A DNA stretch of 64,000 nt from Catellatospora bangladeshensis (GTDB lineage: Bacteria; Actinomycetota; Actinomycetes; Mycobacteriales; Micromonosporaceae): NCBI RefSeq assembly GCF_016862575.1, contig NZ_BONF01000034.1, forward strand, positions 1 through 64,000, written 5' to 3'. Shown piece after piece: positions 61,767-64,000 of the stretch. The notes below the pieces were generated by a model, which was given only the letters and a program-made list of their open reading frames with translations, had not been told where the DNA came from and did not search any database. Numbering within the stretch: the stretch's first letter is position 1; each line of letters opens with the position of its first letter. The translations under genes and the position numbers were made by a program.

Positions 61767-62753
61767 TCAGACCGCGTCGCCCGCCAGCACCGTGCCGGGC
61801 CGCTCACCGGTTTCCGCGGACGGCGCCTGCTCGATGCGCGAGGAGCCCTCGTCCCCCTGCCAGTGGCGCAGCGCTTCCGACAGCGCGCCGAGCGCGTCGT
61901 GCAGGCGCCGCGCCCTGGCCCCCGGCTCGGCCAGCACCGCCTTCAGGGTGAGTCCGCTCTGCTGGGCGGACAGCACCGCCGCCGGGGGCGCCCCGTATCC
62001 GTCCTCGTACGCGTAGACGGCTTTGACCCGCTCACCGGCCACGACGGTCTCGCCGGCCCATACCACCATCTCCCGCCGCAGGACCGGCTTGAGCCACGGG
62101 AAGCCGGCCAGCCACCTGTTGTCGAACGCGATGGCCGCCTGCCGGTCGCCCTCCGTGGGCTGCGCGGCGGGCCGGCCCGCCGCGAGCACCGCCTCGGTGG
62201 CCCTGCCCAGCGCCGCGCTGATCGGGCTGGTGCCCTTGCGCAGCTGCACCGACCGCGGGGAGATCCGCAGCATCTGCCGGTGCCCGCGCAGGAAGAGGTG
62301 GTGACCCTGCCGGGTCAGACCGTGCTCGTCCAGCGCCAGCGACGACAGCACCAGGTCGTGGGCGTATCGGCCGTCGTTGACCAGCGCGTGGCCGGTGTGG
62401 TGGTCGCCGCCGCTCAGCTCGGCGTACCCGTTGGGGTGGTGGCTGTGCCAGAGCCCCAGGAACTCCACGTCCGGATGCTCCTGGATCAGCCGCTGGTACA
62501 CCCGGAACTGGTACTCGTTGTCGGAGTAGTGGTGCACCGCCGACCGGTCCGCGAGCGGGCCGTCGTCGATGAAGCCGCCGACGACGATCCGCAGCTTCGC
62601 CAGCTCGCGCCGCCAACTGCGCGACGAGGCGTCGAAGTCGCCCTCGATCCACCCGACGAACTTGCCGCCGACCTCGTAGTCGGGGCTGGCCCCGATCTCG
62701 TCGCGGACACGCTCCAGCACGTCCTCGTAGAACTCCAGGATCAGCTCGCTCAT
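61767..62753 (-). CDS. JAMM/JAB-domain isopeptidase of a ubiquitin-like system
   Basis: Protein of 328 residues. The N-terminal 150 residues form an MPN/JAMM metalloprotease domain: Glu27 in DYEVGGKFVG and the zinc-binding HSHHPNGYAELSGGD (His103, His105, Ser114, Asp117). Such enzymes cut ubiquitin-like proteins from targets or trim their C-terminus. Residues 160-328 are an extension I cannot assign (AAIAFDNRWLAGFPWLKPVLRREMVVWAGE, later a helical stretch LHDALGALSEALRHW). The start overlaps the E1-like gene by four bases (ATGA), so it is the last gene of the operon. Confidence 0.92.
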   Translation of the reverse strand: MSELILEFYEDVLERVRDEIGASPDYEVGGKFVGWIEGDFDASSRSWRRELAKLRIVVGGFIDDGPLADRSAVHHYSDNEYQFRVYQRLIQEHPDVEFLGLWHSHHPNGYAELSGGDHHTGHALVNDGRYAHDLVLSSLALDEHGLTRQGHHLFLRGHRQMLRISPRSVQLRKGTSPISAALGRATEAVLAAGRPAAQPTEGDRQAAIAFDNRWLAGFPWLKPVLRREMVVWAGETVVAGERVKAVYAYEDGYGAPPAAVLSAQQSGLTLKAVLAEPGARARRLHDALGALSEALRHWQGDEGSSRIEQAPSAETGERPGTVLAGDAV

Positions 62754-63604
62754 GCCGCGCCCTCCGGCGTGGCGTCCTCCGGCGTGCCGCCGCAGTCGAG
62801 GTAGCAGCTGCGCTGGGGCTTCACGAGGACCCGGGTCGTCGCGTAGTGGTGCGCGAAGACGTCCTTCTCCGGCCGGATCCCCACGGTCAGCCAGTTGAAC
62901 GACAGCCGCGGCACGTACGACGACCTGCCGCCCATGAGCACGCTCCAGGCCATGTGCGCGTGCAGTCCCGCCACGATCGCGATGTCGACGGGCAGGCCGG
63001 AGGTCACGAAGTCGGCGTTGCCGATGCCGTAGCGCTCCCGCCGCTCCTCGCTGGTGAGGTCGAGCGCGTTCTCCAGGTTCAGCTGGTTCGCGTCGGCGAC
63101 CATCTGCATGCACGCGAAGCAGCCGGTGGCGCCCGGCGCGTACAGGTAGATCTGGCCGCCCACGCCCGTGCGCATCACCGAACCGGTCAGGCAGGGCCGC
63201 CGCAGCCGTACGCACTCGGCGTTGATCCAGCTGCGCACGGCGGGGTTGTCCACCGCGCAGATGACCAGGTGCGACCCGGCGGCCGCCGCCTCGAAGGCGT
63301 CCGACTGCTGCACGTCGGCGGCGTGCGCGTCGACCACGGCCGCCGGGTTGCGGTCCATGATCCAGTCGTGCAGCACGTCGACCTTGGGCCTGCCCAGGTC
63401 GGCGCGGCGGCCGGGGTGCTTCACCAGGTTGACCGGCTCCAGGACGTCCGGGTCGAACAGGTGCCAGCGGGCGATGCCGGCCATCGCCAGCGGCTGGAGC
63501 AGGGTCGCCCCGCCGCTGCCGAGACCGACCACGGTGACCGCCAGCTGGTTGACCGGCGAGTCCTCGAGCAGGTGCGCGATCCGTGCCGTGTCGAGCTTCT
63601 CCAT
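62750..63604 (-). CDS. ThiF/E1-like adenylating enzyme
   Basis: Protein of 284 residues that should adenylate the C-terminal Gly of a ubiquitin-like protein. ATP-binding VVGLGSGGATL (25-35), the acidic LFDPDVLEPVNLVKH (49-63), the basic GRRADLGRPKV (65-75) and ICAVDNPAVRSWIN (115-128) match MoeB/ThiF/E1 proteins. Two Cys pairs, C162-x2-C165 and C267-x3-C271, form the typical structural zinc site. Cys131 or Cys138 (ECVRLRRPCLTG) could be a thioester Cys. It follows the E2-like gene by six bases and overlaps the JAMM gene. Confidence 0.93.
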   Translation of the reverse strand: MEKLDTARIAHLLEDSPVNQLAVTVVGLGSGGATLLQPLAMAGIARWHLFDPDVLEPVNLVKHPGRRADLGRPKVDVLHDWIMDRNPAAVVDAHAADVQQSDAFEAAAAGSHLVICAVDNPAVRSWINAECVRLRRPCLTGSVMRTGVGGQIYLYAPGATGCFACMQMVADANQLNLENALDLTSEERRERYGIGNADFVTSGLPVDIAIVAGLHAHMAWSVLMGGRSSYVPRLSFNWLTVGIRPEKDVFAHHYATTRVLVKPQRSCYLDCGGTPEDATPEGAA

Positions 63605-63610
63605 CGTCGA

Positions 63611-64000
63611 TCAGTGCCCCTGTTCGGTTCCGGGCCAGTAGCCGTTGTGCCGGTACACCTCGTACTTGTTCAGCCAGATCGCGGCCTTGGCCACCGCCAC
63701 CGCCACCGAGTAGATGGGCCGCCACTGGTCGGGCCGCATGATGCACATGTTGCCCTCGACGTAGGCGTGCGGGCAGCTCTCGATCGCCCAGCCGTTCGGG
63801 AAGATCTTGGGCAGCCGGTGGGGGTAGTCCGACGGCAGCGCGACGTAGATCGCGTACTGCCGCCGCAGGTTCGTGGTGAGCTTGCCGTGCACCTGATAGG
63901 TGTTGCCGGACGCGGCCCACCGGAACTGCGGGAACGCGTTCGCGAGCCGGGCCTGCTCGACCGCCCACCGGTTCCTGCCCCGCAGGTCCTCGCCCAGGAT
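63611..64000 (-). CDS. E2-like (UBC fold) conjugating protein, 5' end outside window
   Basis: About 129 residues are visible and the frame continues through the window end, so the N-terminus is missing. The visible part shows the E2 pattern: FPQFRWAASGNTYQVHG, YAIYVALPSDYPHRLPKIFP (the E2 YPxxxP strand) and then SCPHAYVEGNMCIMRPDQW, where the Cys after EGNM lies at the E2 active-site position, followed by the helix VAVAVAKAAIWLNKYEVY. The C-terminus WPGTEQGH is family-like. It is the most upstream visible gene of an E2-E1-JAMM operon; a ubiquitin-like protein gene is expected upstream. Confidence 0.85.
   Translation of the reverse strand: MLGEDLRGRNRWAVEQARLANAFPQFRWAASGNTYQVHGKLTTNLRRQYAIYVALPSDYPHRLPKIFPNGWAIESCPHAYVEGNMCIMRPDQWRPIYSVAVAVAKAAIWLNKYEVYRHNGYWPGTEQGH

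Follow-up and report, generated by a model that had tools for sequence, protein, structure and literature searches.

What does a bacterial ubiquitin-like conjugation operon attach when no ubiquitin-like protein is encoded beside it? The question is raised by three genes at the end of a 64,000-nucleotide stretch of DNA from Catellatospora bangladeshensis (contig NZ_BONF01000034.1, positions 1 to 64,000; the whole stretch is referred to here as the window). They encode an E2-like conjugating enzyme, an E1-like adenylating enzyme and a JAMM metallopeptidase. Judged from sequence, they probably form a ubiquitin-like conjugation operon in which a short peptide, and not a beta-grasp protein, serves as modifier. 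The peptide, of 52 amino acids (aa), is encoded directly in front of the E2 gene, just outside the window. The genes and sites concerned are listed below, with the contig labelled C34.

Contig C34 64041-64199 (= L004:6042-6200), minus strand, outside the window: 52-aa peptide gene, the proposed modifier (open reading frame (ORF), ribosome-binding site, coupling)
Contig positions 63611-64039 (63611 to 64000 in the window), minus strand: gene for the E2-like conjugating enzyme, 142 aa (PADLOC, E2 profile)
63743 to 63745, minus strand: codon of E2 Cys99, the predicted active site (invariant with His91 in a three-member alignment)
62750 to 63604, minus strand: gene for the E1-like adenylating enzyme of the ThiF family, 284 aa (Pfam, E1 profile; Gly-rich loop, CFAC/CYLDC)
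61767 to 62753, minus strand: gene for the JAMM metallopeptidase, 328 aa (motif and weak profile matches)
62403 to 62447, minus strand: JAMM metal-site motif HSHHPNGYAELSGGD, His103 to Asp117 (motif pattern)

The E1 gene begins six bases after the E2 gene, the JAMM gene overlaps the E1 gene by four bases, and the window edge removes the first 13 residues of E2, which starts at contig position 64039. The initial annotation of the window had described these three minus-strand genes and their spacing, an E2 cysteine after EGNM, an E1 Gly-rich loop with a four-Cys site and a JAMM motif HSHH...SGGD. The coordinates and translations confirm all of these, and the E2 and E1 genes are separate, as it had said.

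The peptide gene

Past position 64000 the next gene is neither of those that the initial annotation had proposed to look for there, one for a ubiquitin-like protein or one for a nucleotidyltransferase. Beyond E2 lie, in order, the genes for the 52-aa peptide, a sigma factor with DUF6596 and a YCII protein, and the peptide gene is the sole plausible gene between the sigma-factor gene and E2. By sequence, the upstream genes are unrelated to beta-grasp proteins, one of the two results that the initial annotation had named as speaking against its proposal, the other being predicted structures unlike the E2 or E1 folds.

The peptide (MNETQRLERLLDEQLDDTPIIINEDGTIQPASDPNARGLAMVDVQGDYRADM) starts with ATG behind the ribosome-binding site AGGAGG, and its stop codon lies one base ahead of the E2 ATG. 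Base composition is coding-like, with G+C of 0.85 at third codon positions (GC3) against 0.36 at second positions (GC2). No Pfam or NCBIfam family is matched. Beta-grasp repeats are given as about 70-75 aa in one account (PMC1779556), and the peptide is shorter than such a domain. Visual inspection suggests a helix, then a stretch resembling a hairpin (PIIINEDGTIQ), then a flexible tail, in which a near-terminal Gly is followed by DYRADM. The literature searched, which was limited to CC-licensed papers, contains no description of this type of peptide.

As a control, the 44 predicted genes of the 64-kb window were examined for a coupled ORF of 45-70 aa, a ribosome-binding site, a Gly tail and coding-like GC3. 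A coupled ORF was found for 8 of the 44; two of these also have a ribosome-binding site, and one satisfies all criteria, including Gly tail and base composition.

The E2, E1 and JAMM proteins

Sequence profiles support the E2 and E1 assignments. E2 carries the motif YVEGNMC and matches the PADLOC E2 model at 4.6e-11; its match to Pfam UQ_con (0.021) is weaker than the cut-off. Among solved structures, a three-sequence E2 profile matched eukaryotic UBC enzymes (6e-7 and 7.6e-7); noise, in the form of unrelated FadL-type porins, lay at 0.003. E1 has a VVGLGSGG loop, a possible zinc site (CFAC and CYLDC; Cx2C, Cx3C) and one match to Pfam ThiF, at 8.8e-31. Among solved structures MccB is nearest to the E1 profile (1.4e-24), with UBA5, MoeB and ThiF close behind (to 1.2e-22); the Cap2 structure matches more weakly, at 3.1e-9.

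Profiles match the JAMM protein weakly (Pfam Prok-JAB 0.028; PADLOC JAB 1.5e-4), and a three-sequence JAMM profile recovered no JAB structure. The motif WHSHHPNGYAELSGGD is present, and Glu27, His103, His105, Ser114 and Asp117 occur in the expected order and are invariant in three sequences. After the JAMM domain follows a C-terminal extension of about 160 residues that matches nothing in Pfam or NCBIfam. The signature WH[ST]HHx7S[GSD]GD occurs in the JAMM proteins of 9 of 9 loci, namely the eight peptide loci described below and one from Bradyrhizobium, and in none of 11 comparator loci. The comparators comprise five loci of CBASS (cyclic-oligonucleotide-based antiphage signalling systems), three of 6A-MBL (MBL, metallo-beta-lactamase), two with a Pro-rich peptide and one with multiubiquitin; the pattern found no JAMM motif in two of the 11, and two CBASS loci have identical sequence. 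Four of the five CBASS comparators have HxHP and one has HSHH without the GD pattern.

Related loci and their peptides

The bacterial family was represented by 354 genomes, which were searched with a six-member E1 profile. Sixteen of them had a match of 1e-30 or better, and in seven of these it was 2.3e-113 or better; the next match scored 7.8e-41, and the threshold for the family (E < 1e-100) was set once this gap was seen. Nine weaker family matches remained, five of which were given a brief look. The seven family loci are those of the window and of genomes G142, G003, G169, G1019, G118 (of the same genus as the window genome) and G049. Six of the seven are in the E1 profile or are the window itself, and G1019 and G118 were found by the profile without being members; seven therefore counts loci and not independent finds. 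Every one of the seven has a peptide ORF of 52-66 aa, with at most 15 bases separating its stop codon from the start of the E2 or E1 gene that follows, and by eye on the ORF output, not via the control script, all satisfy the control criteria.

Two kinds of peptide can be distinguished, and the E1s of both groups align as one family. The first kind is that of the window. G142 has the order peptide, E2, E1, JAMM, with a 56-aa peptide ending PYGEYA. An eighth locus, on Mesorhizobium sp. AR10 plasmid NZ_CP080523.1, has the order peptide, E2, second E2-like protein, E1, JAMM, MBL-like protein, patatin-like protein, with a 57-aa peptide ending LGGEY. In Smith-Waterman comparisons (45 pairs tested, 500 shuffles each) the window peptide is similar to those of G142 (Z 6.8) and Mesorhizobium (Z 4.2), with 0/500 shuffles as good in either case.

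The second kind mostly ends in GYF plus one residue (GYFG twice, GYFS, GYFR). The order is peptide, E1, JAMM, E2 in G003 and G169; peptide, E1 and JAMM can be read in G1019 and G118, where the sequence piece stops; G049 has JAMM, E2, peptide, E1. The peptide is 58 aa in the four GYF genomes and 66 aa in G049, where it ends FGGARVR. The four GYF peptides are mutually related (Z 31-41, 0/500 shuffles), and the G049 peptide is related to them at Z 4.3-7.8 (0, 1, 0 and 0 of 500 shuffles). The ratio of non-synonymous to synonymous differences per site (pN/pS, uncorrected) of the GYF peptides is 0.35-0.68 in 6/6 pairs, which fits translation under selection.

All eight peptides have a Gly two to six residues from the end, and the residues after it vary: G-DYRADM, G-EYA, G-EY, G-YFG, G-YFG, G-YFS, G-YFR and GG-ARVR. 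A conserved Gly with a variable stub, encoded beside a JAMM protease, resembles BilA. One pair across the two groups, G118 and G142, reached Z 3.1 (8/500 shuffles as good). The similarity between the groups being insignificant, the kinship of window-type and GYF-type peptides rests on position, size and tail design; these we claim to be common to both on sequence grounds, and common descent is not proven.

Further genes accompany two of the window-type operons. In G142 a gene about 2.3 kb downstream (L012:12131-15223) encodes a protein of 1030 aa that matches TPR weakly and, by eye, has a motif like a P-loop. The second E2-like protein of Mesorhizobium (L025:4380-4910, annotated as a Phd/YefM antitoxin) has Ser in place of the catalytic Cys and a Phd-like N-terminus. 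An active E2 beside an apparently inactive one recalls the pairing of eukaryotic Ubc13 and UEV. The MBL-like protein matches a candidate defence family in PADLOC at 2.2e-8, its Pfam match being weaker than the cut-off, and the patatin-like phospholipase matches Pfam at 6.3e-15 and nothing in PADLOC. The CBASS effector CapV is described as a phospholipase (PMC10097602), and this likeness is therefore a hint at defence, from a single locus.

Distribution and genomic context

The operon is a rare, accessory locus. The sister species G051 carries the same flanking genes, a glyoxalase-family gene and a sigma-factor gene, 91% and 93% identical to those of the window and 336 bases apart, and lacks the operon between them; in G118 a GYF-type operon lies at another genomic site. 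In a 396-genome sample of the phylum, searched with the A9 E1 profile, G003 alone passes 1e-100 and 138 genomes pass 1e-20; the window E1 itself matches this profile at 1.2e-35. Among the other loci of the phylum, ORFs were listed for three from distant genomes (L038-L040), without a peptide search; these have pairs of JAB-like and E1 genes followed by a protein of about 350 aa. Scans of genome contigs gave one Vibrio ThiF, 28% identical (L020), and the E2 profile gave one weak match (L032) in 398 genomes of Vibrio's phylum. Viral contig scans revealed no relative, and the phage scan gave a single 2-kb record, at 32%. No convincing peptide was found at a Roseomonas ThiF locus that lies amid insertion sequences.

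The neighbours of the window operon are ordinary, the glyoxalase-family gene lying on one side and the sigma-factor gene beyond the peptide gene. Outside the window, on the minus strand at contig C34 64215-64479 (L004:6216-6480), there are two short fragments, MALGTLPRMAPEQ.. and PGPLDRLIAKLLAKDPGARPS.., that are in different frames and by eye resemble parts of a Ser/Thr protein kinase. The interval from the sigma-factor gene to the peptide gene may thus contain a decayed kinase gene.

Comparison with known systems

Bil, Bub, type II CBASS and 6A-MBL were compared with the window operon, and it lacks at least one tested defining feature of each. The initial annotation had proposed an E2-E1-JAMM conjugation operon, with no cyclase seen in the window and a layout closer to Bil or Bub than to the fused Cap2. 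The enzymes of such an operon are indeed encoded, and no cyclic nucleotide synthase was found among the nine neighbouring proteins scanned, the rest of the window having been gene-called without annotation; assignment to Bil or Bub finds no support, since the upstream gene encodes a 52-aa peptide that matches no Pfam or NCBIfam family.

Bil resembles the window operon in that modifier, E2, E1 and JAMM are separate genes. Its defining gene, for a beta-grasp (ISG15-like) modifier, is missing here by sequence, the adjoining 52-aa gene having no family match; BilA has two ubiquitin-like domains, whereas the window peptide has no known domain. According to a review, BilC, the JAMM of that system, cuts back the BilA precursor and thereby exposes a reactive Gly, and the E1, BilD, consists of two adenylation domains and a Cys domain (PMC11354881). 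In contrast to this multi-domain enzyme, the window E1 has 284 aa and one ThiF match.

Type II CBASS shares the E1, E2 and JAMM enzymes, and the window E2 and E1 score best against the PADLOC E2 and E1-E2 models. It also shares a donor without a beta-grasp fold: the cGAS enzyme of CBASS is described as lacking that fold and as being attached by its C-terminal residue, Gly or Ala (PMC10097602). A CD-NTase gene was found neither in the operon nor among the nine scanned neighbours, and the fused E1-E2 protein Cap2 is replaced by separate genes six bases apart. Relatives exist in which a lone E2 stands beside a nucleotidyltransferase-like gene, so that it is the CD-NTase, not the Cap2 fusion, that decides membership of CBASS. 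The JAMM proteins differ as well, with HxHH...SxGD in the window and HxHP in CBASS. Several E2 matches were set aside as CBASS-like because a nucleotidyltransferase-like gene lies just before E2, as judged by eye from translations without a family search.

G156 and G153 (L008, L009): CBASS-like E2 loci
G064 (L010, L016): CBASS-like E2 loci
G456 (L017, L021): CBASS-like E2 loci
Clavibacter plasmid (L030) and Enterococcus plasmid (L031): CBASS-like E2 loci

In the Clavibacter locus (L030:3919-5393) the gene that by eye is nucleotidyltransferase-like comes first and an E2 gene lacking annotation comes next, an arrangement like a short CBASS.

For 6A-MBL (NCBIfam NF058523) the window E1 (P0003) reaches 56.5 bits where the cut-off is 320, and the proteins P0002 and P0004 do not match. 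This system corresponds to type 6a in the operon classification of Iyer et al. (2006), described as an MBL gene next to a gene in which E2, E1 and JAB are fused into one protein (PMC1779556). In common with the window operon it has all three of these activities and no known ubiquitin-like protein, and an MBL-like gene is shared with the Mesorhizobium relative; the window differs in its separate genes and in having no MBL gene beside a conjugation gene.

In Bub and the polyubiquitin-like operons (type 6e), as at the window, a small gene precedes the genes for E1 and an E2-like protein. They carry multiubiquitin domains and a DUF6527 gene (annotated example L029), whereas the window operon has no such domain, the peptide matching neither Pfam nor NCBIfam. 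Bub works with oxyester intermediates and a serine protease. Pup and UBact are short modifiers as well, of roughly 60 aa, and Pup is attached through its C-terminal Glu by a glutamine-synthetase-like ligase in place of a ThiF-type E1 and a UBC-type E2. MccB, of the microcin C7 pathway, is an E1-like enzyme that activates the C-terminus of a 7-residue peptide. It is the top sequence match among solved structures for the window E1 profile; its pathway is not known to include an E2 or JAMM, both of which the window operon encodes.

Other possible donors

In Bradyrhizobium barranii plasmid NZ_CP088281.1 the N-terminus of E1 resembles, by eye, the G049 peptide, fused in frame; the GYF-peptide profile matches it weakly (E 0.005 in a seven-sequence search). 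The same operon contains a nucleotidyltransferase-like gene (by eye, product ending LFGSTFGA), a dsDNA nuclease-domain gene and a TIR gene, and for that reason may be CBASS. The fusion supports a tie between peptide and E1, yet the fused peptide has no free end, so that the evidence points both ways.

At three 6A-MBL loci (L117, L118, L119) a gene that by eye is MBL-like lies directly before that for E2-E1-JAB, and its products end THGLR, KHGDDD and MRAG. In this type the donor that is conjugated may be the MBL protein. Two further plasmids carry ThiF and Mov34 genes with a Pro-rich ORF directly before ThiF, and no cyclase is annotated nearby in either.

L035, upstream of 3322, and L070:2798-2974: Pro-rich ORFs ahead of ThiF

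In Hymenobacter sp. NBH84 the ORF has 58 aa, ends VGQQ and precedes a ThiF of 602 aa; in Indioceanicola profundi it has 52 aa, ends QVG and precedes a ThiF of 560 aa. The two are related (Z 6.3), and their products are possible disordered modifiers. These cases suggest that in each operon type the gene in front may provide the tail for conjugation.

Proposed mechanism and alternatives

We infer the chemical steps, cleavage site and targets of the proposed pathway as follows. The 52-aa peptide would be produced as a precursor, and the JAMM protease would trim the residues past the conserved Gly (at a predicted site, VQG-DYRADM). E1 would adenylate the exposed Gly carboxylate, the peptide would be transferred to E2 Cys99, and E2 would join it to a target amine or to E2 itself; the JAMM protease may also be able to undo the conjugation. 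This mechanism is suggested because the peptide gene is coupled in 7/7 loci, the Gly tail is kept in 8/8 peptides and the JAMM signature in 9/9 loci, and because of the low pN/pS. MccB as the top relative of E1, and the precedents of BilA trimming and cGAS conjugation, point in the same direction.

Several observations weigh against it. The conserved Gly is non-terminal in all eight peptides, and the Mesorhizobium tail after it is merely EY. Neither the GYF peptides nor that of G049 are significantly similar to the window peptide (Z -0.7 to 0.1), and hhalign of window-type against GYF-type peptides gives E 0.068 with a probability of 0.5%. Even within the window group the G142 and Mesorhizobium peptides are not significantly similar (440/500 shuffles as good), and the Mesorhizobium E1 gene is frameshifted. 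The peptide starts in G169, G1019, G118 and G049 were picked by eye inside longer ORFs, from ribosome-binding site and alignment. Across six aligned E1s there is no invariant Cys beyond the zinc-like site, hence no conserved Cys for an E1 thioester, and E1 may therefore pass the adenylate directly to E2. AlphaFold without alignment gave models too poor for use (mean pLDDT, its confidence score, 44.3 for the E2 fragment and 33.4 for JAMM). No effector gene occurs among the nine scanned neighbours of the window operon, and none of three 6A-MBL loci, found in 224 genomes, has a separate peptide.

One alternative is a peptide natural-product pathway, in which the E1-like enzyme would activate a peptide C-terminus in the manner of MccB, and the E2-like and JAMM proteins would tailor or release a small bioactive product. 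The E1 profile does match MccB best (1.4e-24), narrowly past UBA5, MoeB and ThiF, and the peptide has a precursor-like size and a possible C-terminal processing site. An E2 with an invariant Cys together with a JAMM is, however, the toolkit of conjugation. Moreover, no transporter or immunity-like gene lies directly beside the operon among the nine scanned neighbours, the sole transporter part being a solute-binding protein gene about 7.5 kb off; the surroundings of the relatives were not scanned systematically. We rate this alternative as unlikely.

We also give a low probability to the peptide's remaining unconjugated, as an adaptor or regulator of E1 or E2 or as a leader peptide, with the true modifier encoded elsewhere. 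The Bradyrhizobium fusion, in which a peptide-like stretch without a free C-terminus is joined to the E1 N-terminus, would fit such a role, and the nucleotidyltransferase-like protein of that operon could be the donor there. A near-terminal Gly, a variable tail and a JAMM protease are better suited to a processed modifier, and no other plausible candidate exists between the sigma-factor gene and E2. Finally, it is very improbable that the operon is a decaying type II CBASS or Bil relic without a donor gene and the peptide a chance ORF, a reading favoured by the best E2 scores being against CBASS-type E2 models and by the decayed kinase-like fragment (by eye) just upstream, but contradicted by intact, tightly packed reading frames of coding-like composition and by a peptide-first order kept in G142 and Mesorhizobium, to whose peptides the window peptide is significantly similar.

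For a role of the peptide conjugation operon in phage defence the balance is about even, judging by family resemblance, one Mesorhizobium locus and a patchy distribution.

Implications

By its sequence the locus appears to be a variant of bacterial ubiquitin-like conjugation, biochemically unproven, and the NCBIfam 6A-MBL model shows that related work exists. In our view there is an equal chance for and against its representing an undescribed branch, in which a modifier of 50-66 aa with a stand-alone tail, cleavable after Gly, has an E1, an E2 and an HxHH-type JAMM of its own. In a wider sense, and at the same level of confidence, the conjugation engine may take any suitably tailed donor that the front gene supplies. 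In CBASS this donor is the CD-NTase; in 6A-MBL it is perhaps the MBL protein, in Hymenobacter and Indioceanicola perhaps the Pro-rich peptide, and at the window it would be the short peptide.

Operons with E1, E2 and JAB but no recognised ubiquitin-like protein have been described since 2006, as types 6a to 6c (PMC1779556), and they leave the question of what is conjugated. The answer from CBASS is the cyclase itself; if the present proposal is true, a short peptide would be a second answer. There would then be peptide modifiers of a size that gene callers and domain searches can overlook, and a set of orphan conjugation operons would become testable. A modifier of this kind would provide a very small genetically encoded tag and show how small a part of ubiquitin is enough for the machinery.

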